DNA from: Nitrospira sp. | Lineage (GTDB): Bacteria; UBA10199; SBBF01 | DNA length: 43,917 nt | Direction of reading: 5' to 3' | Assembly (NCBI GenBank): GCA_005240075.1 | Contig: SBBF01000075.1 | Location: forward strand, 1 to 43,917 | Shown here: in pieces, positions 1 through 20,692 of the stretch | Layout: every line of letters begins with the position of its first letter | Position numbering within the stretch: position 1 is the first letter of the stretch | Translations under genes and position numbers: made by a program | The notes under the pieces: model-generated | Told to the model about the DNA's origin: nothing | The model's database searches: none | Seen by the model: only the letters and a program-made list of their open reading frames with translations

Positions 1-3000
1 ATCGTGATCCTCATCCAAATTATAAACCCCATCATTGGCGGCAGTATCAACGGGAATGATTTCCGCCGGATCGCCCAACGAAGCCCAGGGGGGAAATTCT
101 TCCGATTCGGCAGGATCGGGTTGAACCTTCAGCGCCGCGCCGTCATCATAATCGGCAAAACGAATGCCTCCTTGTGCCTCTTCCCAAACGCGGGCGTTGT
201 GGTCGGTGCGGGTTTCGGGCGCAATACCTTCTTCGGGAGCGATGAATCGTGCCCCTCCGATAAATCGGTCGGCTGAATTACGAGGTGTTCCCGAATTATC
301 TTCACCCTCTCCAGTAGCTGGACTTCCTGAATCACCTCCCGAATTTGGATCAGAGGCAACAAGAAGACGGCTGGCGATATCATTAAATGTATTATGACCG
401 AGTGACTCTCTCAGTCCTGCCATAATGGCCTCCGCGGCAACTGTTCGGGTCCCTTTGATCAATTCTTGGACTTGAGTGTTGTTTTGCTCCAGCCATTCAA
501 GAATCGCCCGATCATTCGCCATCATTTCATCGACGGTAGCTCGCGAAGCATTTCGAATTTCTGCCGGATACAACGAGTGTAATCGCTCCAAGGCCAAGGC
601 GTAGGAAACAGGCTTTCCCATTCCGGTCAGACGCGAGTCAGCCTCAATAACCCCCCTCACAATGCGGTCTTCGGCAAGCCGCCGCTGCAACTGGTGGTGG
701 AAGAAACGGCGGGATTCTTTCCAGGGGACAATACCATCGATCACCCCCTTGGCCTCCATCCGTTCCGGTTTGTCATGAAGATCGGCAAAAGCTTCGGCAA
801 CAGATTGGTAGTAAGGAAGCAAATCTGCTTCTCTCCTTCTTATCGAACTCTTTAAGCTTTTGACTTCCTGATCTGACAAGCCTTGCTGTAGAAGTGCCTG
901 ATCAAAATTGATCAGTTGTTCATCCAGACGATGCATGGTCCTGATGAGTTCGGGATCCCTGTATTTGATTTTTCGGAGTCCCGAAGGCTCCAAAACTCCT
1001 CCGCGAGCGGTGGGGTCGGCATAAAAACGGATCTGGTCCGGATTGATCATCGGATCAACCACAACCCAGGAACCCCCCCGGAGTTCCGCATGGGGAGGAA
1101 GATAAATAAAGATCGGTTGTTTGTAGTGGCGAAGATTATCGACAATATAAGAACCGTATTTCAGCACCTCGAAATACATGTCCCTCGTCCCGCCGGAAAA
1201 TCCGCGAACATTGATAAAAATCATCAAGGGCAACCCTTCCCGGTCAAAATCGGCAATCGTTTGCGCGGTTTTGTAGGAAGAATCAGGGTACCAAACCTGT
1301 CCCGCCTGTTTTTCAATTCGTTCAGCCGAGGTTCTGTCTCCCGGATCGGCCGGAATCTTGCGTTCTACCAGTCGGGTATCGAAAGCAATCACCCCGGTCG
1401 GAATTCCTCCCAATCGGGCTCTGCCCGTTACCACTGTTTTTCCCCATCCTGCGAGAGTTTCGGTAAAAGAACCCTTATCAAAAAAACCACTGACCCACCG
1501 GTCGTTACTATATGTGGCTCCCTCAATAAACTGCCGGGGATCGTAAGGCCCTCCAAAAGGGGCAAAATCGACGTCACGACCAACGGGATCGGCATGATCA
1601 AGCCTGGGGAGTTCTCCCCCTTTCCGGAGAGGGACATAACCAAGCCACCTGATTATTTCACCCATCCCTTCCAGATCGTCTTGAACCACACGATGGGTCA
1701 TTCCATTGGGGAACATGATGGGAGTTCCTCCCAATTCCCTGTTGGATTGATAAACATTCTGTTTGAGAAGGGCATTAAGCGCCTCATATCCGGTAAGAAT
1801 GATATCAGCTCCGTTCCTTTGGATAACGCGTTGTCCCAGACGGGTAACGTACGAACCAATTCCCACATTAACCCCCGAAACATAGGTCAGGGTGAAGGTT
1901 TCATCGTAAGCGGCCGAGGTTTCTCCTGCTATCAGTCCCGAGCCCCGCAAATTTTCCTGATTGATGCCATCTTTCTTGCCAATTACCGCAATAATCTTGT
2001 AACGAATTTCTTCTCCTTCCTCGATCCTTTCTGCAATCACGGAACTCTTGTGTGCTTCGTAATCGTCCGGCGTCAGATAGAAATAGTCCAATTTTGTCTG
2101 GTCTCCCTCTCCCGTTTCAGCCACCCGATAGAGCGACTTGATCTCATCGGCCATTCCGATCCGTGCCCCAGAGTTGGCGGCAATAAAAATACGGGGAATC
2201 CCTTCCCGACGTGCCAGCTCAGAGGCCTTTTGGTAGAGTTGATCCTCTTGAACCGAAAAAGAACCATTCTGGTGGGTGATGTCATTGGCAATCAGAATAA
2301 TATCCCTCCCTTCAGGAGCCTCAGGAGTTACAAGAGTGAGCCTCCAGGCAACCATCCCTATATTATTTCGGCCATCCGGTCTTTCGACTTCAACAAGTTC
2401 TCCCCCCCTGCTTAAAACAAGTTCCCTCTTCTCCATCACCCTCACAGGCACATAGGGAGCCGTGATTGATCGAGAAGTAGCATGCCGATTCCAGACTGTT
2501 CTTAAGGAATTCTCCAACAAAATCGGAAAATCATAAACATAGGAGGTCCCTTTGCTCCGGGCTAACACTCTTTTTCTTTCAAGTGGGTTTAACGGCTCAT
2601 AGGGAGAATCAACCTCTTTCCCTTCCCTCATACCTGGATCATTAGCTCTTAGGCTCTTCAAAACATAACGGCCCTTTTCATCCTTTGTCTCCCGATAGCC
2701 ATCAATGTGCAAAAATGAACCGGTGGGATTGGTTAAAAAATACCGAAGAGTCTGCTTGTCACCTCCACTATTCAAAACGAGCCTGACCTCTACTTCGTTG
2801 ACTTTAAGTTCCTTGAGCCTCGAGGCGTATCGGCGTGCCAAACGACCCATGTAGTCTTGAACCACCGATTCCTCTAAAACCAGTCCAGGAAGGATATTGA
2901 GATAAATATGGTTTAATTCCGTCTTATTCACCCCATTGCCATTGGAACGAAGAGCCAGTTCAAGTTCATCCAGAGCAGACACAAAAGAGTGCTCCACTTC

Positions 3001-6000
3001 TGGCACTTCCAGGTGCCTGTCAGCTTCTGCCAAATTCTGTGTAACCGTTGCTCCCCGCACCACAGCTCGCGCGAAAAGACGCCTGTCCAAATCGGAAGCT
3101 TTGACCCCTTCTGATGGATCAGATTTTTGCACAGCATGATAAACATGAATCTGACGATTTTCAGAAGGGGAATAACGATAATCAAATTTTTCCAACCGTC
3201 GCATTTCCAGTTGAAAAGCCAAAGGGGGTTCAATATGTCGTACGTTTACGTCTTCTTGATAACCTGTTTCCCTCCTGAAAGTGTAATAGGATGGAAATTG
3301 TCTGGTGTGCCCCACCACAAAGGTAACTCTTCCCGCCCCGGCTCTCTGGAGGGCATCATGATAAGGGGTCAGCATGCCTCCCAGATGGGCAATCAATCGC
3401 CCCTCATCGGAAATGGGGGGTTCCTTGACAGCAATGGTCAGGCTATTATCAAGTTCAGGATTTGAAATGGCTTCGTCATACAACCGGATCAAACGGGGGA
3501 GATTTCCTTCCAAATCTTCCAGCGATTTGAAATAAGCCATTACCCCTTGCCTGGCAGGTCTCTCGTGCGAATCTCTCAGGTAACCGTAAGACCAGGTCGC
3601 TTTCAAAAAACCGGACTCTTCATTGATCTCAAGATTTTGTATCGGATAGAGCCGATAGGCCCTTTTCACATAAACTCTCATGGCCGCTGCTCTCACCGAT
3701 GAACCCTCATCTGAAAAATAGGGGAAAAGAATGTCAAACATCGCTTCGGGACCCGCAACCAGTTCCCGAATGGTTTTTCTGTGTGTATCTCTGCCGGCTG
3801 AACTGGCCAGACGAAGTTTGCTCCCCAATTCTTCCGATCGATTCTCATAGGTCTGCAGGCGTTGTCTCACTAAAAGAAGCTTGGCCTTGGCCGCCACATC
3901 CGAATAATCCTCCCCTTCCAGAGAAGACAGTCCATCAAGCTCAGACAAAAAGCGATCAACCGATCTCGATGTTGAAATATGGTCCAAAAGTTCCAAAATC
4001 AGCTGGTTTTTGTGAGCAAGATTGGAATGGGACCGAACCACTTCATACACCTTGTCCCATCCCCCCAGGTTATCCTTTTCCTCTCGAAGTTCCCGAACCA
4101 CTTCGTCATATTTTTTTCCCCCCTGAAACCTCTTTTCAATATTGAGATAATGATTGAGATATTCTTTCAAAATAGAAACCACCCATTTTTCTGTTGTTGC
4201 ATGCCGGGCAACTGTTTCATCAAGAGGACGAACAGCGTTATCAAAAGCTGTCTGTTCTTCCTGATTGGAAAGGGCCTCCCTTTCGGATTGAATGACTGAA
4301 AGAATGTTATCAGATGGAAAGCCGGCGGATGGACCACCACCTTCTCCTTCCAAAACAGAACCGTAGTAAATCAGAGCCTCCCATACCGCCTCTTCAACCC
4401 TCTGCGGAAGCCTTCCCTGCAGGCTTTCCATAACCACCGAAACAGCCTCGACAGGAAGGCGAGGGCTATACAGGGTTGTCCATAAATCGTTTACAATGCT
4501 CCCAAGAGCTTTTTTAAAGTCATCTTCCGGATATCCGTAGCCATCCAGAATCCCCAAAACACCGTGATGAACTGATTGGAAAAGTCCCAGGACACTTAAA
4601 CCTTCTTCCTCTTCTTCATCCGTCAAACCAACGGGGCGATCAATTTCCACCGCTTTCTGAACTTCAACCCCTTCACCCAATTCAAGCGTTGCAATCAGTC
4701 CACCGACAGGAAAATCCCGGCCAGCTTGCAGAGCATAATGGATGACTCCTGCTTCCGGCGCCCTTATTTCTTGCTCCATCTTCATCGCTTCAATCACGGC
4801 AATCGGCTCATTTTTAGAAACCTTTGAACCATCCGGAACAAGGGGTCGAATCAGTTTGCCCGGCATGTCAGCTTTGATTTGAGTGGGGTCATATTCTTTG
4901 GTAAAAAGACAGGTATTTCCATCGATCTCTAACCGCAAACCATTCACTTCCTCCTGCACATAGACCAGATGAGCCATGCCATTGAATATGAGAAGGTACC
5001 CCCCATCAGCCTGTTTTCTGATCTGTCCTTCGACCCTCTCCCCCTTGAGAGTGATTACAAAGCGATTCAGACCGGTTCGGGTCACCACAAAAGGGTATTT
5101 GACGTTGTCATAGATCAGCTCCACATCAAAACTGGTCTTCAGAGCTTTCCGGGGGGGAATATGGCCCGATTGCAATTGGCTGACATACTGGGCTACTGTT
5201 TCATCAGCTCCGATATAGGCTTTGTAGATCGCTCCCGCCATCAGGGCAATGAGGGTATCCGGTTTTTCAGCTGTTTTTTTGGCTGTAATCAGCCCATCCA
5301 GCCAGCTGGTATCAACATGGTTGAATTTAAATTCCTCCGATTCAAGGAGAGTAATCAACATTTCCCTGTTGGTTCTGATTTCTCCCCGGATCGTCAGATT
5401 TTTTAAGGCCATGACAGCCCGGCGCCTTGCTTCTTCCCTCGTTTCCCCCTGGGCAAAGATATGACCAATTTGGGAATCGGCCAGTGTATGAACCTCGGAT
5501 CTCGGTCCAACTGAAAAATAACCCCACACATGGGGAGGGGGTTCAAACCTGATGTCCTGAACTAATCCGGCTGTGAGCTTGAAACCCTCATCTGCGTTTT
5601 CAGCGGTAATTCGGACGGCAATGACATGCCCTTTGGGAGAAAGATCGTGGATGGTTGAAAAGTCGATCTCCTCGTCGGACGCAGGATCTTTCCCAAAAAA
5701 TTTCCGGATTTCCGGGATACGATGAAGGGGGATCCCCATGCTGATGGCCAATTGAACGCCAGGGAGGTTGATTCCTGTAATTCCCTCCGTCACCGGATGT
5801 TCCACCTGCAAACGGGAGTTGAGCTCCAGAAAATAAAACTCCCTGGTTTCCGGATCATACATAAATTCCACGGTTCCCATTCCCTGGTAACCTACTTCTT
5901 TGGCCAAAGCGACCGCTTGATCCCTCATCCGGCGTCTGATTTCTTCCGGGGCTCCGATGGCAGGCCCCTCCTCGATAATTTTTTGATGCCGTCGCTGAAC

Positions 6001-7137
6001 GGAACAGTCTCTCTCATACAAAGCCACCGCATTTCCATGTGCATCCGCCGCCACCTGAATTTCAATATGGCGGCTTCGAGCCGAGGCCAGTTTCATCACA
6101 AAGATGGGGGAACCGGCTGATTCACCCATCACTTGGGAAAAAGCCGATTTCAATCCTTCGGGGCCCTGTACTTTTCTCATCCCCCTTCCCCCTCCCGTTC
6201 CAGAGGCCTTGATCATAACGGGATAACCAATACGATTTGCTTGGGCTTCTGCTTCTTCTGCGTTTCTAACAGTGGCCTGGCTGTAAACTTCTCTGGGAAT
6301 GCCTTGAGTGGCATAGTCAATCATCAAGCCATCTCCGCTCCAGGGAATCATGGAGACCCCTTTGGATTGGGCCACCAGATTGGCACCAATTTTATCCCCC
6401 AGGGCCATCATTGGTTTTTCTTCAGGACCCATGAAAATGATCCCTGCCTTGATCAGTTCCCGGGGCAATGCCGGGTTTTCGGACGCATGCCCCCAGCCGG
6501 GCCAGACCGCATCCACCTGCTGCTCTTTTGCCATCCTGACAATCAGGCCCACATTGGCATAATTGTTATTGTTGGGACCTCCAGACACTTCAATATAACG
6601 ATCAGCCATTCCAATGAAGGAGGCATTGGCCTTTAAATCTTCCGTGGTCGCCATCACCACAATTTCAATGGCATGGTCATCTCCCAGATTGTCATAGGCC
6701 CATTGACGGAACGAGCGAATTCCTTTAACCGCCGCCATGCCGTTGTTGGTAATCAAAATGCGCCGAATAGCTCTGGTGGGATTTCCCTGATAATAACGGA
6801 TGTAGTCCTCGACGGTAGAAAACCGGGGGGGCATGGAACCAAGGGTATTGGAAACCGGCCGTTGAAAACGAACAGCCATGGAATCCTGTAAGGGGGGGGG
6901 TGAAACCGGGGGAACCTCCCTTTCAAAAAAACTGAACGCGTCTTCAATAACAGCAACCTCTTTGGGGTTCTGGCCGCCTCCCGTTCGAAGCGCCGGCATG
7001 AGATTGGTGGCTGTAATCGCATCCCACTCCTCAGGATTCCCCCAATCATCTCGACTGGCCATGAGCTGATCCCAAATCTGCTGGTCATCGGGCCGTAATC
7101 GGTCCCTGAAACGTGCAACAATACTTTCACCCGACAT
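1..7137 (-). CDS. Eukaryotic-type single-chain acetyl-CoA carboxylase (C-terminal end cut by window edge)
   Basis: The protein carboxylates acetyl-CoA to malonyl-CoA using biotin, ATP and bicarbonate, the first committed step of fatty acid synthesis. The frame is open from ATG 7137 to base 1 (2379 codons, no stop seen), with GGAGGG at 7145-7150 as ribosome binding site. Visible in order: an N-terminal segment (1-118); biotin carboxylase with NNGMAAVKG (about 130), GGPNNNNYANV, WPGWGHASENP, the ATP-grasp loop GTGGGRGM and ELNSRLQVEHPVTE; a BT-like region; BCCP with biotinyl Lys786 in EAMKMEQ; a long central region (about 830-1560); carboxyltransferase with NIGMVAW, ANSGARIG, GRARLGGIPTGV, RGFSGG and ELRGGSWVVVDP (about 1580-2080); then an acidic, disordered-looking tail. 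Order, length and motifs match animal and yeast ACC, not the split bacterial AccABCD. Similarity includes the central region, so I am confident of the family. Presence in a bacterium is the oddity. An internal ATG at 6879 is in frame but has no such binding site. Confidence 0.95.
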   Translation of the reverse strand, partial: MSGESIVARFRDRLRPDDQQIWDQLMASRDDWGNPEEWDAITATNLMPALRTGGGQNPKEVAVIEDAFSFFEREVPPVSPPPLQDSMAVRFQRPVSNTLGSMPPRFSTVEDYIRYYQGNPTRAIRRILITNNGMAAVKGIRSFRQWAYDNLGDDHAIEIVVMATTEDLKANASFIGMADRYIEVSGGPNNNNYANVGLIVRMAKEQQVDAVWPGWGHASENPALPRELIKAGIIFMGPEEKPMMALGDKIGANLVAQSKGVSMIPWSGDGLMIDYATQGIPREVYSQATVRNAEEAEAQANRIGYPVMIKASGTGGGRGMRKVQGPEGLKSAFSQVMGESAGSPIFVMKLASARSRHIEIQVAADAHGNAVALYERDCSVQRRHQKIIEEGPAIGAPEEIRRRMRDQAVALAKEVGYQGMGTVEFMYDPETREFYFLELNSRLQVEHPVTEGITGINLPGVQLAISMGIPLHRIPEIRKFFGKDPASDEEIDFSTIHDLSPKGHVIAVRITAENADEGFKLTAGLVQDIRFEPPPHVWGYFSVGPRSEVHTLADSQIGHIFAQGETREEARRRAVMALKNLTIRGEIRTNREMLITLLESEEFKFNHVDTSWLDGLITAKKTAEKPDTLIALMAGAIYKAYIGADETVAQYVSQLQSGHIPPRKALKTSFDVELIYDNVKYPFVVTRTGLNRFVITLKGERVEGQIRKQADGGYLLIFNGMAHLVYVQEEVNGLRLEIDGNTCLFTKEYDPTQIKADMPGKLIRPLVPDGSKVSKNEPIAVIEAMKMEQEIRAPEAGVIHYALQAGRDFPVGGLIATLELGEGVEVQKAVEIDRPVGLTDEEEEEGLSVLGLFQSVHHGVLGILDGYGYPEDDFKKALGSIVNDLWTTLYSPRLPVEAVSVVMESLQGRLPQRVEEAVWEALIYYGSVLEGEGGGPSAGFPSDNILSVIQSEREALSNQEEQTAFDNAVRPLDETVARHATTEKWVVSILKEYLNHYLNIEKRFQGGKKYDEVVRELREEKDNLGGWDKVYEVVRSHSNLAHKNQLILELLDHISTSRSVDRFLSELDGLSSLEGEDYSDVAAKAKLLLVRQRLQTYENRSEELGSKLRLASSAGRDTHRKTIRELVAGPEAMFDILFPYFSDEGSSVRAAAMRVYVKRAYRLYPIQNLEINEESGFLKATWSYGYLRDSHERPARQGVMAYFKSLEDLEGNLPRLIRLYDEAISNPELDNSLTIAVKEPPISDEGRLIAHLGGMLTPYHDALQRAGAGRVTFVVGHTRQFPSYYTFRRETGYQEDVNVRHIEPPLAFQLEMRRLEKFDYRYSPSENRQIHVYHAVQKSDPSEGVKASDLDRRLFARAVVRGATVTQNLAEADRHLEVPEVEHSFVSALDELELALRSNGNGVNKTELNHIYLNILPGLVLEESVVQDYMGRLARRYASRLKELKVNEVEVRLVLNSGGDKQTLRYFLTNPTGSFLHIDGYRETKDEKGRYVLKSLRANDPGMREGKEVDSPYEPLNPLERKRVLARSKGTSYVYDFPILLENSLRTVWNRHATSRSITAPYVPVRVMEKRELVLSRGGELVEVERPDGRNNIGMVAWRLTLVTPEAPEGRDIILIANDITHQNGSFSVQEDQLYQKASELARREGIPRIFIAANSGARIGMADEIKSLYRVAETGEGDQTKLDYFYLTPDDYEAHKSSVIAERIEEGEEIRYKIIAVIGKKDGINQENLRGSGLIAGETSAAYDETFTLTYVSGVNVGIGSYVTRLGQRVIQRNGADIILTGYEALNALLKQNVYQSNRELGGTPIMFPNGMTHRVVQDDLEGMGEIIRWLGYVPLRKGGELPRLDHADPVGRDVDFAPFGGPYDPRQFIEGATYSNDRWVSGFFDKGSFTETLAGWGKTVVTGRARLGGIPTGVIAFDTRLVERKIPADPGDRTSAERIEKQAGQVWYPDSSYKTAQTIADFDREGLPLMIFINVRGFSGGTRDMYFEVLKYGSYIVDNLRHYKQPIFIYLPPHAELRGGSWVVVDPMINPDQIRFYADPTARGGVLEPSGLRKIKYRDPELIRTMHRLDEQLINFDQALLQQGLSDQEVKSLKSSIRRREADLLPYYQSVAEAFADLHDKPERMEAKGVIDGIVPWKESRRFFHHQLQRRLAEDRIVRGVIEADSRLTGMGKPVSYALALERLHSLYPAEIRNASRATVDEMMANDRAILEWLEQNNTQVQELIKGTRTVAAEAIMAGLRESLGHNTFNDIASRLLVASDPNSGGDSGSPATGEGEDNSGTPRNSADRFIGGARFIAPEEGIAPETRTDHNARVWEEAQGGIRFADYDDGAALKVQPDPAESEEFPPWASLGDPAEIIPVDTAANDGVYNLDEDHD

Positions 7138-7371
7138 GTAAAAACCCTCCGCTCGTTGAACATGAATAGATCAAAGGTTGATTCCTTCTTTTCGGCAACT
7201 CTCCAAAAAAGTTGCTTAAAAAATGCAAAAAATTTCTTTTTTTTTGACTTGGCCCCCTTTGAGGGTTTCCCCTCGGCCAAAATGGCAGAATTGGGCAGGG
7301 CTATGACAATTGGGGGAGGCTTGTCAAGGAAAGGGGGAGAACAAAGAAGACAAATGAGAGATTTGAGGTGA

Positions 7372-8756: not shown

Positions 8757-11672
8757 TTATCGCGCCAGACGCACGGCTCGGACTATACTTGAACGGACGG
8801 CTTGGCGGGTGAATGTGGTTGCTCTCCGGCGGGGCGTTCTCTTTCTTCCGCGGGAGGGGGAGATTGGTTCATCCACATTGGCAGGGGGCGGCATCGTTCC
8901 GGGTGAACCGGCACCGGAAAAACCGGGCGCCTCTTCATCCAAAACAACAGCCGATCGCCGCGCATCCCTGAATCCTTCCTTGTCAGGCAAACTTTCTTTT
9001 TGCGCCGCATCAAGAGCCAAATCGACTCTCCTGACCGCTTCCTTGAATTCCACTTTATCTTCAGCCCGCCGGATCGCTTTGTGATCGGTCACCGCCATCG
9101 TCACGGTCAGGGTTCTTTTAAAGGGGGCATAACCGGCAGAGGGCAATGAATCGTGGCTCCCGTAATACCAATCAACAATCTTGCCAGACGCCTCCCTTTT
9201 AACCCATATGGGAAGACGCCGATTTTCCTCTTTGGCCGGTTCCGTTAATCGTACGTTGATGCCTTGAGTCTGCAAATAACGGATAATCGTGTCAGGCGAA
9301 AGTTTTGCCCCCTGTCTGTTTGCTTTGGGAACGGTCAGAACATAATGATCAGTCCCCATCTTATCCAGATCCAGGGTCGCTTCCACATTTAAATCAAAAG
9401 AGAGCGCCACATCGGCGGCGCTTTTTTTGAGATCCTTACCCGAAAGATGACCGCCGATATCCGCAAGAAAGAGTTTCATACTTTCAACCTTCATGAAATC
9501 GTGAAACAGTTGAGGCTGGTAATGATTCCTCACCATCTGCTGGATTCTTTTGCAATAGGCTACCGGATCAACAGGATTTCCCCGACGATCTTCATGCGGA
9601 ACAGAAATATTGAGATGATCCCCCTTTCCCGGAATAATGACTATCTTGGATGGATCCATGTTCATTTCCTGCGCCACCAGAAAAAAGGCATCTCGAACAA
9701 AAAATATTTCACGGTCGTCGTCGGAGATGGCCGGATAAGTGCTTAAATAAGCTTTGAGGGAATCATATTCCAGCGCCAACAAAAAGCGGTTTCCAAAACG
9801 GGCAATTTCCTGAAGGGCAAAATTCGATTCCACCTCCTGAACTCTTCCCCCCCTTTGGACTCCAAACGTTTCATGTTTCTTGACTGTCCAGGCATAGCGG
9901 GGATCCATCGCAGAAAAGGAATAGACCGAAAGAATAGCTTCGCGGAGTTGGGAAGCAGTTTGCTGAGCAAAACTCAAAGCTCTCTGTCTTTCGTCAGAGG
10001 GGGTTCCGGGAGGGGGAAAGAAAAGAGAATAAAGTCCTTCCATCAACCGATCGCACAAGCGCCCGCTGTTTCCCCTGATCGGGTGGGAGAGAATGCCTGA
10101 AATTCTTCCCAGACGGGGAAAGATTCTGAGCAAATGGTTGACTAGAGGGGTCAATGCCGGATCATCGTTAATGTGAAGCCCCTGAATATCCAGACTCCTC
10201 AGATGAAACGTGGGACGGGCATGGGACGGCAGGTCTTTTAAATGAGGATGGGCAGAAGGATGATACTGCCCCGGCCCCACATAACCGGCGCTTGATTGAA
10301 TGAGTCTAACCCATTCTGGAGCGTGCTCATCACCCGGTTTTGGAATGTCCCCTTCTGTAAAAACGGAGCCTTTTCGTTCCTGCGAGGATGAAGTCTGATT
10401 TTTTTCAAAAAAAGTGGTCTGCGCTGCCAACAAGCGGTTGGCCTCCTGATTAGCCAGGAAAATAAGGGCATTAAGGGTTTGAACAAGAACCGGATCCCTG
10501 CTGGATCTAATGGCATTAAAGTCGGGGCTTTCCCATTTGAGAATTTGACGGGCTATAATCATCCCCCTTGATTTGAGATCATCGATATCAAAGCGTCCGT
10601 TAAGTTCCAGAATCGGTTTGAAAGCTTCCAGATCCTCTTCCGTTTTAATGGCATAGTCATAGAGACTGCCGCGGGACAGAACTATTTCCGAAACAACCGC
10701 TTCCGGTTTGAAATTGTGAACTCTTTCTGAAGAGACATCAAACGAAGTAAAAAGGTCCCGTGTGAGATCGCGGCTGAAATAGCGCATTTCTTTTTCCACC
10801 AGGTCGGCTGACTGGCCAATAAACTGAAAACTGGTATTCTCCGGATTTTTGACCAGATGGGCGTTGCCAAATTTTTTCTGGAGCCACCCTCCCACAAGCA
10901 CCAGATAAAGGTCTCCTAGTTCTCCTGTGGGGTCCAGTTCATTGATCGTCGTCATGTTGACATGAACACGGTAAATTTTAACCGGCTTGTCCGATTCCCA
11001 GAGGAGAGTGAACATCCGGTCGTATTGAGTCAGCCAGTGCATTTCGTTTTCCTGCAACAGATCCTTAAAGTCGGAGTTGGTAACCGTAAAAAAATGATCG
11101 ATGTGCTTTAAGGGGGAAAATTTAGAATGGGCAATCTGCTGTCGTACGTTGTCCGTCAGATCTTCCGCCGACAAAGCCCCGATCTTGCCCAACAGAAGAT
11201 CGGCCACCATCATTTCATCAAGAAAATGAGTTCGAAGTTCCGGGGGGAGAAGAAGATATTCCCGAAGCCCTTCATGCAGAGGGCTTGAAGCTCCCGGAAG
11301 CCCGAAGACAAAATAGAGAACTTCAAAACGAATGCGGTCGATTCTATTCTCCCAGAGGGAATCGGTAATCAGGGCTCTTTGTCTGTCTGATTCTTCCCGG
11401 TGATGCAGGCGGGCCACCGAATGATCCGCCGCTCCCAGATAGCGAAAGAGAGGCAAAACATAGGAGGATGTCCGGGCAAAAGGCTGCCCTTGGATCACCT
11501 GCCTAAGCGCTTCCTGGACATCGGTCCAATCTTGAAAGGTGAGCTCGTGAGAATGAGCCCGCTCCTCGATTCCGGACCAACGCCAAACAAGAGAATGGTC
11601 CGTTCCACCAATTTCGCCTAAATCTTTCCCCAAATTTTCAAGGGAAGCACTTAATGTTGGTGCTGTTGACAT
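8757..11672 (-). CDS. 971-aa protein of unknown function, possible degenerate GGDEF-like domain
   Basis: I do not recognise this family over its full length. There is no signal peptide or membrane segment, so it is probably cytoplasmic. Residues about 625-890 show a faint GGDEF (diguanylate cyclase) pattern: FLLALEYDSLKAY where the metal-binding strand would be, KIVIIPGKGDHLNISVP where the GGDEF hairpin would be, and LTVTMAVT followed later by RVDLALDAAQKES like the C-terminal strand and helix. An insertion of roughly 130 residues splits it, and GKGDH replaces GGDEF, so it would be inactive. The last 60 residues are Pro/Gly/acidic and then strongly Arg-rich, ending RAVRLAR. It starts 6 bp after the 782-aa gene, so the two are probably co-transcribed and translationally coupled. 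No strong ribosome binding site is visible. Confidence 0.7.
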   Translation of the reverse strand: MSTAPTLSASLENLGKDLGEIGGTDHSLVWRWSGIEERAHSHELTFQDWTDVQEALRQVIQGQPFARTSSYVLPLFRYLGAADHSVARLHHREESDRQRALITDSLWENRIDRIRFEVLYFVFGLPGASSPLHEGLREYLLLPPELRTHFLDEMMVADLLLGKIGALSAEDLTDNVRQQIAHSKFSPLKHIDHFFTVTNSDFKDLLQENEMHWLTQYDRMFTLLWESDKPVKIYRVHVNMTTINELDPTGELGDLYLVLVGGWLQKKFGNAHLVKNPENTSFQFIGQSADLVEKEMRYFSRDLTRDLFTSFDVSSERVHNFKPEAVVSEIVLSRGSLYDYAIKTEEDLEAFKPILELNGRFDIDDLKSRGMIIARQILKWESPDFNAIRSSRDPVLVQTLNALIFLANQEANRLLAAQTTFFEKNQTSSSQERKGSVFTEGDIPKPGDEHAPEWVRLIQSSAGYVGPGQYHPSAHPHLKDLPSHARPTFHLRSLDIQGLHINDDPALTPLVNHLLRIFPRLGRISGILSHPIRGNSGRLCDRLMEGLYSLFFPPPGTPSDERQRALSFAQQTASQLREAILSVYSFSAMDPRYAWTVKKHETFGVQRGGRVQEVESNFALQEIARFGNRFLLALEYDSLKAYLSTYPAISDDDREIFFVRDAFFLVAQEMNMDPSKIVIIPGKGDHLNISVPHEDRRGNPVDPVAYCKRIQQMVRNHYQPQLFHDFMKVESMKLFLADIGGHLSGKDLKKSAADVALSFDLNVEATLDLDKMGTDHYVLTVPKANRQGAKLSPDTIIRYLQTQGINVRLTEPAKEENRRLPIWVKREASGKIVDWYYGSHDSLPSAGYAPFKRTLTVTMAVTDHKAIRRAEDKVEFKEAVRRVDLALDAAQKESLPDKEGFRDARRSAVVLDEEAPGFSGAGSPGTMPPPANVDEPISPSRGRKRTPRRRATTFTRQAVRSSIVRAVRLAR

Positions 11673-11678
11673 AAAGAG

Positions 11679-14027
11679 TTAGATACTTCTTGTAAATCGC
11701 AGTATGTTACCTGGCCGTCGGGCAGCGGTCAGAGCAACTCCTCTATACCTCCTTGATTGCTCTTCCCTCATGACTTGCTTCCACCCCTTACCTCTCTCAC
11801 CTCCCTCATCACCCTTGTTTAAATCCATGACTGGTCGATTTTCATCGGGTCCTTTCACATCTTCCTCATCAGAAAAATAAAAATGATCATTCTCCATAAA
11901 ATTAATGATCGATTCGTTTTGACTGCTCACATTTTTCACTTCCACGGTTTTGAAAGCCAACGGAGTTTCTACCGGATAGAGGGCCAAAGCAGGGAGGCGT
12001 TTGATGATTTTTCTGGCCGTTTTCATAGATTCCTGATCTCCCGTTATGCGAAGAAGTTCCATTTCTTCATCAACAACAGAACCGATCTGTTCGGAAGCCT
12101 GCAGAACCAACTTTTCAAAACCGATCTCTCTCAATTCTTGTCGAGAACGATAAGACTTCCCCAAAGCCATCTCCCTCCGATCCGCTTCCAAACGGGCCAC
12201 AAAGGCAGGGTATTGGGAAAAAATTCCCCTCTCCAGAGGGATAAAATCATCAAGAGAAATTTTGACCGCCGCCAACCCCGTATAATCAAGGAGCAGCCGG
12301 GCCAAATCAGTTAGGGAGACAGCCGCAGGCTGAAATCCAGGGAGATAAAGAAAAAACTCAGCAGGCCTCTTCATATCAAGAGACAAGGTCATCAGACGAA
12401 CGGCATCTCCCCCATTCCAGGCCTCCGGATCATTCAAAATTTCAACAATCTCCCTGATTTTAACAAAAATATTTTCCACTGCTGCCTGGACCCGTTGCAG
12501 GGAAATCTGACCCATAAAAATATCATCCTCTGATCCTGGACCGATCCGTTTGAATTCAACAATAACCTGATTTTTGCCATCTGGCTTAAAAGAAAAGGAG
12601 AGCCTCCGGCGTTTCTTCAGCAGAGGTGAATTGTCCACCAGGTTCAGCCGGTGGACCATGGCTTCAATTTCGTTCATGAGAAAAGGGGTAGGACGGCTTG
12701 ACAAATGAAAGAGGAGTGCCTCAGGCTCGGAATCGATATCGAGGGTAAAATCAGGAAAGCCAGCATCGGGTTCATCAGGAACAAAGGCATACATCAACCG
12801 ACGATCGGAAGGTTGAACTCTTAATTCCCAGGTTCCGCTTCCCAGCGCCTCTGCCATTAAAGAAACGAGATTGTCCACTTCGGCACAAATCAGAAAATGG
12901 AGATGTTTATCCATTAACATCGGTTTGGCTATGGGATCTGAAAAAGAAAAAATGAGCGCTTCGCTATCTCCCTCCGGGAATAATCCGGTATAAATAATAC
13001 AGGATGCACTGTGAGAAACCGGTGCAAGAGCCATCCAATTCCCCCGCGGCAGATAGCGTTGTAAAAGAGAGTCGCCAATGATGTGAGCTCTTTTCCCTCC
13101 TCTGTCATCAGCGTCTTCAGGGGAAGAACTATTTTCCAGAGAACGAATTTGACGGGCTATATCTTTCAGATTTTCTTGATTTTCTTGAAGCTTCACCATC
13201 TGGGGATCCGTCGGCTTTTGCATAAAACAAACCTGCAAGGCTTGTCCCACCAGGCGAATCATGATCTGCAGTTTTTGAATCAGATGATTCCTTGATTCCG
13301 AGCCAGCCCGATCATCCAGATGCAAAGCCTCCAGAGCTGATTGCAGTTCATTCACCACAATCAGCACAAGGGGAAGATAGATGCCTCTTGTTTCCAACTC
13401 CTGGATGGGAGGAGCCTCATAGGAAAGACCCAAATGTTCGGAGGCTTTTTTTGCCATTTCCTGAAGCCTTTGATCAGCCCCCGGAACTTTGCTTTCTGGT
13501 TCCAGACACTCAACAGAGTACCAGAGGAAACGCCGAAGTTCGGCTATTATCACAACATTTGCCCACTTTCCCCTTTGCTCCTCGTAGTGCTGAAATTCTT
13601 CCAAGTTTGATTCCAGATTTGCCAAAATCTGGGGCCCTATAAAACCGGCTAGCCGTGCAACAGGAACTGATCTCACAATGCTGACAAGCCTGTCGATATC
13701 TTCAAGGGCCAGGGCAAAATTGGGGAAGGAGCAAAAAGGGGCTTTTAAGGGATTCCCCTCCTCTTTTGCAAAAAGCCGCTCCGCATGGGTTCTGAAAGGG
13801 TGTCTCACACGAGTCAATCTTTGTAGATCATCAAGATCCCGCCTGAAAGATTCAACGCTCTGGAAGATATGAGGATGAACTGCAGGCGGAATTCCTTTGG
13901 CTGTAAGCTGGTCGGACAAGACTTTCCCCTCAGGAATAACCAGCTCTTCCAAGGGTTCATCCGGTTTCATGACGCCAATTTCTCTCAAAAGATCAATAAG
14001 TTGGCTATATCGGGCTACAATATCCAT
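11679..14027 (-). CDS. 782-aa protein of unknown function
   Basis: Unrecognised. The start is MDIVARYSQLIDLL. The N-terminal 300 residues look helical (many Leu/Glu/Arg heptads, for example residues 130-170 and 215-300). The middle (about 320-560) looks mixed alpha/beta with hydrophobic strands such as ALIFSFSDPI and LSFSFKPDGK. A basic KKRRR patch lies near 490. The C-terminal 75 residues are an acidic linker and then an Arg-rich tail with RRYRGVALTAARRPG and ILRFTRSI. There is no signal peptide or membrane helix. It is the first gene of a pair with the 971-aa gene, with a 6-bp gap. It is transcribed divergently from hicAB. Together with the neighbouring AceE and carboxylase it may belong to a shared assembly, but that rests on position and on the tail only. 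Confidence 0.7.
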   Translation of the reverse strand: MDIVARYSQLIDLLREIGVMKPDEPLEELVIPEGKVLSDQLTAKGIPPAVHPHIFQSVESFRRDLDDLQRLTRVRHPFRTHAERLFAKEEGNPLKAPFCSFPNFALALEDIDRLVSIVRSVPVARLAGFIGPQILANLESNLEEFQHYEEQRGKWANVVIIAELRRFLWYSVECLEPESKVPGADQRLQEMAKKASEHLGLSYEAPPIQELETRGIYLPLVLIVVNELQSALEALHLDDRAGSESRNHLIQKLQIMIRLVGQALQVCFMQKPTDPQMVKLQENQENLKDIARQIRSLENSSSPEDADDRGGKRAHIIGDSLLQRYLPRGNWMALAPVSHSASCIIYTGLFPEGDSEALIFSFSDPIAKPMLMDKHLHFLICAEVDNLVSLMAEALGSGTWELRVQPSDRRLMYAFVPDEPDAGFPDFTLDIDSEPEALLFHLSSRPTPFLMNEIEAMVHRLNLVDNSPLLKKRRRLSFSFKPDGKNQVIVEFKRIGPGSEDDIFMGQISLQRVQAAVENIFVKIREIVEILNDPEAWNGGDAVRLMTLSLDMKRPAEFFLYLPGFQPAAVSLTDLARLLLDYTGLAAVKISLDDFIPLERGIFSQYPAFVARLEADRREMALGKSYRSRQELREIGFEKLVLQASEQIGSVVDEEMELLRITGDQESMKTARKIIKRLPALALYPVETPLAFKTVEVKNVSSQNESIINFMENDHFYFSDEEDVKGPDENRPVMDLNKGDEGGERGKGWKQVMREEQSRRYRGVALTAARRPGNILRFTRSI

Positions 14028-19004: not shown

Positions 19005-19343
19005 CTAAAAAATTCTGAGAAACGCGCGGTGGATCGTCTTCCAGTCTCTTAAAGAGAGAGCCCCCAGTTTTTGGTGAACGAGATTTTCCTCCACAGTCAC
19101 CATTTTGGCAAGCCTCACTTTCGAAGGACTCACTAAACCAGCCTCCTTCCAATCGTCAATCAAAAGGTCTCCTTTGATTTTTGGCCCTTCTATTTGGCTT
19201 GTCACCATAGCAATAATCACCAAGTCAGGAAAAGTTTTTATCGGAATAGAGGCCATCACCAAGGCCGGTCTTTTTTTGTGGGTTGATAAATCGGTAAAAG
19301 GAAAGGGAACCAGGACAACATCTGCCGGTTTATAAGTTGTCAT
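19005..19343 (-). CDS. MazF/PemK-family endoribonuclease toxin
   Basis: A 112-aa protein starting MTTYKPADVVLVPFPFTD, the classic PemK/MazF opening. It continues with KKRPALVMAS and GLVSPSKVRLAKMVTVEE, where Ser/Lys/Arg line the active groove. These enzymes cut single-stranded mRNA. The ATG at 19343 is preferred over an upstream in-frame start because the family begins there. It overlaps the upstream antitoxin gene by 14 bases, implying translational coupling. Confidence 0.92.
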   Translation of the reverse strand: MTTYKPADVVLVPFPFTDLSTHKKRPALVMASIPIKTFPDLVIIAMVTSQIEGPKIKGDLLIDDWKEAGLVSPSKVRLAKMVTVEENLVHQKLGALSLRDWKTIHRAFLRIF

Positions 19344-19548
19344 AAACAGAATCGCGCGGGTTGTCCCATTCCGCAAAGGCCTTTTCAGCCAAAGCCAAGG
19401 CCGCCTGGTTTTCACGACGGTGAGTGAGATAATGCTCCAAAGCCTGAACGACAATCTCCCTCACTGTTCTTCCTTCCTGCGCCGATTCCAGACGAAGCAG
19501 TTTAAAAAGCTGGGGATTTTTAAGATCAATGGTCAATCGGGTATCCAT
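19330..19548 (-). CDS. RHH-type antitoxin of the MazF/PemK module
   Basis: A 72-aa protein. MDTRLTIDLKNPQLFKLL and then GRTVREIVVQALEHYL form a ribbon-helix-helix DNA-binding domain. An Ala-rich helix and the acidic tail EWDNPRDSVYDNL look like the part that blocks the toxin. It lies directly upstream of the PemK/MazF gene with a 14-base overlap. A TTGACA promoter element and an inverted repeat precede it. Confidence 0.87.
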   Translation of the reverse strand: MDTRLTIDLKNPQLFKLLRLESAQEGRTVREIVVQALEHYLTHRRENQAALALAEKAFAEWDNPRDSVYDNL

Positions 19549-19554
19549 AAAATC

Positions 19555-19583
19555 ATAGAAACATAAAAATGTTTATATGTCAA
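19555..19583 (-). promoter_or_regulatory. Likely promoter and operator of the mazEF-like module
   Basis: The minus strand has a perfect -35 TTGACA (19583-19578). An inverted repeat AAACAT/ATGTTT (19559-19574) sits in the spacer. The -10 is unclear: TTCTAT at 17-bp spacing, or TATGAT further downstream at a poor 20-bp spacing. The arrangement resembles the other TA promoters in this window. Confidence 0.45.
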
Positions 19584-19613
19584 TGGACAAAAAAGGCGGT
19601 CGGATTTGTTGGA

Positions 19614-20300
19614 CTACTTCTCCATAAATTTTTTTGAAATTATTTTTTGGCTGGCCAAAGAGGTTCTTTTTTTGATTTCCTTCCAGTCAGTATAGGGTTT
19701 TTGAAGAGCTTTATAATGGCTGAGATCGGTCTCCGACAAATCCCATGGCTTGGGATCCGCCAGTTGCAGGGCTAATTGCCGGGCAATCGATTCCCCATTA
19801 TCCTGGGGATAAAGGCGATCCATAGGTTCAAGAGCAGAAAGAGATTTTTCAACTCCCAGAGTATCAAAGAGAGCGGCAAAGTCGATAAAATCGCGGGTCG
19901 TGTTCCTTCGAACAATGAGATAGGCTTTAATCCGAAATATCTCCTCGGTAGTTGGAACGCGAAGACCTTTAATGACCGTGGTTTCCAAAGGGGCTTTGCG
20001 AATGAGTTGCCGGATTCCGGTCCGGACTCCTTTAAAATGACCCAAAATAAGGACAGGAGGTTCCAATCTTTTGGTAATCCATCCCACCTCCTGTTCCACT
20101 TGCCTTAAAATTGCTTCAAAACGTTTTTTGAGATCGGCAACAACATAATCGGCATCCATGGAAACACGGTGGCCCGCATGAAGCGCGGCGGCAGTCCCTC
20201 CCACGAGAACTGATTGGGGAAAATGAGACTGAAACAAAACCTGGGCTGAAAGGAGCCTTTCCCATTCTGGCAATTCCTGTAATGGCTTTTTTTTCTTCAC
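19614..20300 (-). CDS. AbiEii-like nucleotidyltransferase-fold protein, probable toxin
   Basis: A 228-aa protein. VLVGGTAAALHAGHRVSMDADYVV (about residues 31-54) is the nucleotidyltransferase core with the GG motif and the D-x-D metal pair. The GHR-S-D-D pattern is close to AbiEii-type toxins. Later RVPTTEEIFRIKAYLIVRRNTTRDFIDF matches the KL-A-x-RxxxRDxxD region of the same family. AbiEii toxins transfer nucleotides to RNA targets. It overlaps the upstream 131-aa gene by 4 bases (ATGA), so they form a two-gene module. The Lys-rich C-terminus is unassigned. Confidence 0.72.
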   Translation of the reverse strand: MKKKKPLQELPEWERLLSAQVLFQSHFPQSVLVGGTAAALHAGHRVSMDADYVVADLKKRFEAILRQVEQEVGWITKRLEPPVLILGHFKGVRTGIRQLIRKAPLETTVIKGLRVPTTEEIFRIKAYLIVRRNTTRDFIDFAALFDTLGVEKSLSALEPMDRLYPQDNGESIARQLALQLADPKPWDLSETDLSHYKALQKPYTDWKEIKKRTSLASQKIISKKFMEK

Positions 20301-20692
20301 AATGATGAGCCCCCTTGAGCCGTTTTGAGAATCCCTGTCCAGAGGGGAGTCACCCCATATATTTTTGTGGACGACAATACTCTTTCAAGAGCCAGAGTTG
20401 TTGCACCAAAAGGACGGTTGATCACCTCAAGATAAAGAACTCTCCAATCATCGAGAGATCCCTCCATCAGCAACTCCTCCAAAAAAACAGGATGGGACAG
20501 GTTGGATTGATTGACTCGGACACTCGACCAAGACCCTTCTTGAGAGTCAAAACCTTTCCCCCAGCGCGCCTGGGCCGCTTTTTTGGCAATGAGGGTTCGT
20601 TCAAGACCAGAAAGAGACCGTTTACGCATGACTCCCCCCTGGCGACCATAATTCTCAAAGAGACGCCTGGTTTTTAAGGATAACCTGTTCAT
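20297..20692 (-). CDS. Probable antitoxin partner of the AbiEii-like protein
   Basis: A 131-aa protein that I do not recognise by name. The N-terminus is basic, with RKRSLSGLERTLIAKKAAQARWGKG, a short helical and Arg/Ala/Trp pattern seen in small proteins encoded beside AbiEii-like nucleotidyltransferases. The rest (residues about 60-125) looks alpha/beta, for example DWRVLYLEVINRPFG. It overlaps the downstream toxin-like gene by 4 bases. The start may instead be the Met at residue 22. The function is inferred from position. Confidence 0.55.
   Translation of the reverse strand: MNRLSLKTRRLFENYGRQGGVMRKRSLSGLERTLIAKKAAQARWGKGFDSQEGSWSSVRVNQSNLSHPVFLEELLMEGSLDDWRVLYLEVINRPFGATTLALERVLSSTKIYGVTPLWTGILKTAQGGSSL

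Follow-up and report, generated by a model that had tools for sequence, protein, structure and literature searches.

A putative prokaryotic member of the eukaryotic-type homomeric acetyl-CoA carboxylase family in a bacterial genome

Introduction

Does a single-chain acetyl-CoA carboxylase (ACC) with the domain plan of the animal and yeast enzymes, found at the end of a bacterial contig, belong to its bacterial host and, if so, how is it related to its eukaryotic counterparts? The gene in question belongs to a genome deposited as Nitrospira sp. (GTDB lineage Bacteria; UBA10199; SBBF01) and lies on contig G000:C29, which was analyzed in its entirety (43,917 nt; in the following, the window). Bacterial AccABCD, for which the same reaction is presumed, is composed of four subunits, whereas a single chain is encoded here. 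The central domain was described as unique to eukaryotic ACC in a structure paper from 2016 (PMC4833862), and the placement of eukaryotic ACC among the bacterial ones was left open by Lombard and Moreira (2011) because of extreme divergence (PMC3199775). Livieri et al. (2019) reported that SACE_4237, a multidomain ACC of Saccharopolyspora that possesses a central region, is homodimeric and essential, and suggested that eukaryotic ACC is of actinobacterial origin (PMC6491548).

Our overall reading, based on sequence comparisons, is that the window probably encodes a native, presumably working bacterial ACC that follows the eukaryotic domain plan, belongs to a prokaryotic family and does not come from animals or fungi.

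The gene and its genomic context

The ACC gene is a single open frame of 2379 codons on the minus strand that runs from its ATG at position 7137 to base 1 and off the contig, i.e., the C-terminal end of the protein is cut by the contig edge (Table 1). The 7.1 kb frame contains no introns, and the strong Shine-Dalgarno sequence pointed out in an earlier note on this DNA is indeed found upstream of the start codon. GC content (0.497), GC3 and codon usage are like those of the neighbors (codon usage r=0.83 vs. the rest of the window). Upstream follow ordinary bacterial genes, namely those for pyruvate dehydrogenase E1, cyclophilin, glutamine synthetase, two ammonium transporters and QueA. The source genome measures 1.96 Mb, with a completeness of 96% and a contamination of 0.01%. 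Homologs of the ACC are encoded in separate assemblies of two relatives, one from the same family (G001; 2703 aa) and one from the same order (G006; 2803 aa).

The high similarity to eukaryotic ACC and the position at a contig end could be taken to indicate eukaryotic contamination or an assembly chimera. Against this stand the long intronless frame with its Shine-Dalgarno sequence and host codon usage, the adjoining bacterial genes, the homologs from separate assemblies of two relatives and the low contamination of the genome. In practice, this reading is refuted by the bacterial context, the relatives' homologs and the contamination value, and we consider its probability negligible. That is, the ACC gene is native to its bacterial host, given its Shine-Dalgarno sequence, the host codon usage and the homologs within family and order, as the earlier note had assumed from the bacterial surroundings.

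Between the ACC gene and positions further upstream, the window holds two large ORFs (8757-14027; 971 and 782 aa), neither of which has a Pfam match; a homolog of part of the 971-aa ORF is encoded on the contig of G001 that carries the ACC gene. At 19005-20692, a PemK-like toxin gene adjoins an AbiEii-like nucleotidyltransferase gene.

Table 1. Features of the ACC gene within the window (res: residues of the encoded protein).
Feature	Position	Strand	Basis
Single-chain acetyl-CoA carboxylase, 2379 aa, C-terminally incomplete	1..7137	-	open frame and domains
Shine-Dalgarno GGAGGG, ends 7 nt before ATG	7145..7150	-	sequence
Biotin carboxylase N-terminal domain, Biotin_carb_N, res 124-243	6409..6768	-	PF00289, E 2e-28
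Biotin carboxylase ATP-grasp, CPSase_L_D2, res 287-472	5722..6279	-	PF02786, E 4e-55
Biotin carboxylase C-terminal domain, Biotin_carb_C, res 508-614	5296..5616	-	PF02785, E 6e-21
ACC-type BT domain, ACCA_BT, res 627-745	4903..5259	-	PF21385, E 5e-32
BCCP biotin carrier domain, Biotin_lipoyl, res 753-818	4684..4881	-	PF00364, E 5e-13
Codon of biotinylated Lys786 (EAMKM, res 783-787)	4780..4782	-	motif IEAMKMEQE
ACC_central, res 853-1499	2641..4581	-	PF08326, 449 bits, E 3e-134; Foldseek E 1e-33
Carboxyltransferase domain, Carboxyl_trans, res 1606-2151	685..2322	-	PF01039, E 7e-128

Domain organization and comparison with eukaryotic ACC

Pfam domains are arranged in the order BC-BT-BCCP-ACC_central-CT within one chain, as in eukaryotic ACC. 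The collinearity of the 2379 residues with animal and yeast ACC, which had first drawn attention to this locus, is thus seen in the Pfam annotation as well as in the PDB matches, where the top matches along the whole chain are human ACC1 (1703 bits), yeast (1568) and Chaetomium (1521). Sequence identity to human ACC1 amounts to 54% for BC and 51% for CT (51-52% for CT when both human ACC1 and ACC2 are considered). Identity to the homologs from its own family and order is 43-48%, i.e., lower than to human ACC. The motifs KASGTGGGRG, RRHQK, ELNSRLQVEH, EAMKM, RGFSGG and ELRGGSWVVVD are all present, and the biotinyl lysine falls at residue 786, where the earlier note had placed it. The window enzyme shares its domain order, a full-length central domain and about 50% BC/CT identity with eukaryotic homomeric ACC (human ACC1/ACC2, yeast ACC1), but differs in being bacterial and in its biotin motif (EAMKM vs. 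eukaryotic EVMKM). Within the BC site, it shows NSR where the aligned eukaryotic ACCs have NPR.

The match of the central region spans positions 35-720 of the 726 PF08326 model positions. An AlphaFold model of this region, run with three sequences, is weak overall (pLDDT 59); its sole significant PDB matches are ACC central domains, i.e., those of yeast and human. Similarity of the central region to eukaryotic ACC, on which the earlier note had made its claim depend, is hence observed for both profile and fold. A model of the archaeal ACC discussed below (pLDDT 42) was set aside. Judged by its sequence, the window protein is a newly recognized prokaryotic member of the eukaryotic-type homomeric ACC family.

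In the proposed mechanism, BC would carboxylate the biotin on Lys786 with ATP and bicarbonate, the tethered BCCP would swing to CT, and CT would pass the carboxyl group to acetyl-CoA; the central domain would provide a scaffold with hinges, like its counterparts in the yeast and human enzymes. In yeast ACC, a 36-residue CDC1 loop bears the inhibitory phosphoserine 1157 (PMC4833862). When aligned to the yeast enzyme, the window ACC does not show an SNF1/AMPK-type CDC1 regulatory loop with conserved serine. Since its loop comprises only about 8 residues, kinase control via CDC1 appears absent, and the short loop may serve as a reference for how such control was added.

Distribution and relation to other bacterial carboxylases

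The earlier note had proposed to search bacterial genomes with the central region. PF08326 matches were found in 10/46 genomes of the phylum and in 3 of about 340 genomes from other bacterial phyla, all of the latter weak, while none of the 14 control genomes showed a match. Among the 293 genomes around a Thermoplasmatota archaeon, five have one. When BC domains are listed by frame length, single-chain forms are seen in 21/46 phylum genomes; these include compact chains of 1850-1900 aa with the central domain undetected, the ligase-fused chains of G028 and G015 described below and, in G010 and G017, chains that have a central domain and no detectable BCCP. A search of genome contigs by two peptide patterns only, which is not a census, found two loci. 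Viral contigs were scanned twice and revealed no relative, and our literature search found no paper on this ACC family in the phylum or in Thermoplasmatota.

Some of the architectures stood out. Two ACC-like chains (L021:2157-9536, L020:5482-16938) combine BC, central domain and CT with the biotin carrier domain undetected. Four genomes (G021, G026, G031, G043) hold a gene related to this BCCP-less form plus a second form, which bears BCCP where scanned (L027). Single-chain carboxylases of G028 (L026:5465-12622) and G015 (L033:5637-13010) carry a C-terminally fused biotin protein ligase domain, which could attach biotin to the carrier domain of the same chain.

BC, BCCP and CT are likewise joined in one chain in long-chain acyl-CoA carboxylase and in further single-chain carboxylases of bacteria, but these, unlike the window ACC, are without a eukaryotic-type central domain (PMC4833862). 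For the actinobacterial single-chain enzymes, the earlier note was wrong in stating that they lack the central region, since SACE_4237, an essential malonyl-CoA supplier, is likewise a single chain that contains one (PMC6491548). It is smaller, with about 200 kDa vs. more than 260 kDa for the window ACC. We made the comparison through proteins of G220 (GC 0.77), G173 and G309, which are presumed to be SACE_4237-type by their size. For these, the central model yields only about 38 bits vs. 449 for the window ACC, and in our trees they branch far outside the window clade. The proposal of an actinobacterial origin appears weakened, because the window family is far closer in the central region than these likely actinobacterial-type proteins.

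Phylogeny and origin

Trees of BC and CT, likewise suggested by the earlier note, agree with each other. For both domains, the window protein falls with eukaryotic ACC and is separate from the PCC and MCC types. The window, G001, G006 and opisthokont ACCs form one clade, to which a Thermoplasmatota archaeal ACC clade is sister, while other bacterial forms are placed outside. In the concatenated tree (1320 columns), the clade with the window protein receives a support of 100/99 and the sister position of the archaeal clade one of 100/100. The opisthokont ACCs, which are the only verified eukaryotic sequences in the trees, are monophyletic (100/100) and exclude the window protein.

AU tests reject a grouping of the window protein with human alone (p=5e-10) or with fungi alone (p=6e-10). 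Grouping it with all opisthokonts without G006 is mildly disfavored (p=0.026), and a joint clade of window, G001 and G006 is not rejected (p=0.14). The branches of G001 and G006 are long, and the trees do not settle the branching order among the three. Because the tests reject a position within the opisthokonts (p about 5e-10), neither animals nor fungi were the donors of the gene. Thus, of the two origins offered by the earlier note, transfer from a eukaryote does not hold with regard to animals and fungi, while a bacterial relative of the eukaryotic enzyme is favored by the trees. Among the prokaryotes examined, the window ACC is, by these trees, the apparent closest relative of the animal and fungal enzymes.

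A different donor would be a deep-branching eukaryote that is neither animal nor fungus, from which the ancestor of the bacterial order could have taken the gene, followed by rapid divergence in G001 and G006. Such a history would fit the higher identity of the window protein to human ACC than to its family and order homologs as well as the patchy spread within the phylum, and the eukaryotic side of the trees is limited to opisthokonts. We nevertheless consider it unlikely: the opisthokonts strongly exclude the window protein, and the branches below it are those of divergent bacterial forms and of a distinct archaeal clade. In an exploratory analysis of low weight, a grass plastid ACC fragment also grouped with the opisthokonts (86/94), leaving the window protein outside.

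We therefore favor, over animal or fungal transfer, a prokaryotic relative of eukaryotic ACC as the likely identity of the window protein. A more far-reaching proposal is that eukaryotic ACC derives from a prokaryotic single-chain ACC, with this order as its closest living relatives and the archaeal branch beside it, and that the pairing of one-chain ACC with type I fatty acid synthase (FAS-I) known from fungi was already present in prokaryotes as a gene module; we regard this as tentative, its prospects falling a little short of even. Our main reading, which we hold to be probable, is that the opisthokont ACCs branch from the range of a prokaryotic family with members in this bacterial order and in an archaeal lineage; the direction of any ancient transfer is inferred. 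Since the long eukaryotic-ACC branch is broken by the window ACC, the archaeal clade and the divergent bacterial forms, the question of where eukaryotic fatty acid synthesis came from becomes testable. The value of the window ACC lies in this question on the origin of the eukaryotic enzyme.

Fatty acid synthesis context

With regard to accABCD in the same genome, which the earlier note had asked for, canonical accA and accD are absent, i.e., none of the 46 phylum genomes has a match above the family cut-off, compared to 7/14 and 6/14 control genomes, respectively. The genome of the window also encodes a PCC-type multi-subunit carboxylase (CT on C39, BC and BCCP on C22) and an MCC-type carboxylase pair on C73, so that the window ACC need not be the sole source of malonyl-CoA.

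On a contig other than that of the ACC, the same genome encodes a FAS-I of 4081 aa (G000:C40:11324-23566; L080, L081). Its domains (SAT, ER-helical, meander, MaoC, MPT/AT, ACP, FAS_I_H, KS) follow the fungal/mycobacterial FAS-I order, and its best PDB matches are fungal and mycobacterial FAS-I. The sole KS match of the genome lies in this FAS-I-type gene, and the applied threshold yields none of FabF size; one KASIII-like gene is located near lytB. In other genomes, the ACC gene adjoins a FAS-I or PKS megagene (G006, G027, G039 and the archaeal G389) or FAS-like genes of less certain typing (G005, G017). Of the 12 genomes in which a FAS-I-type KS match is strong, 11 also contain a single-chain ACC (Fisher p=4e-4); the p-value is 0.046 if only genomes with any BC are considered, both values being without phylogenetic correction. 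G001 has the ACC and no KS match.

Most likely, malonyl-CoA from the window ACC would be used by the single-chain FAS-I, whose gene lies on another contig of this genome. An alternative is a broad acyl-CoA carboxylase that supplies a pathway to polyketides or special lipids and not the synthesis of bulk fatty acids. This would be in accordance with the PKS/PUFA-type neighbor of the ACC in G389 and with the additional PCC- and MCC-type carboxylases, and substrate choice is not revealed by domains. On the other hand, the only KS match of the window's own genome is part of a FAS-I-type gene, with none of FabF size, and CT shares about 50% identity with known acetyl-CoA carboxylases, such that we judge this alternative quite improbable and retain the supply of FAS-I as our preferred reading.

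The megasynthase of G389, a Thermoplasmatota MAG, has the architecture KS-AT-4xACP-KR-DH-ACPS and lies 34 bp upstream of the eukaryotic-type ACC (L074:768-10742, L062:4777-11259). Finally, 15/46 phylum genomes, several of them more than 95% complete, have neither a biotin carboxylase domain nor a KS match, which suggests a loss of fatty acid synthesis.
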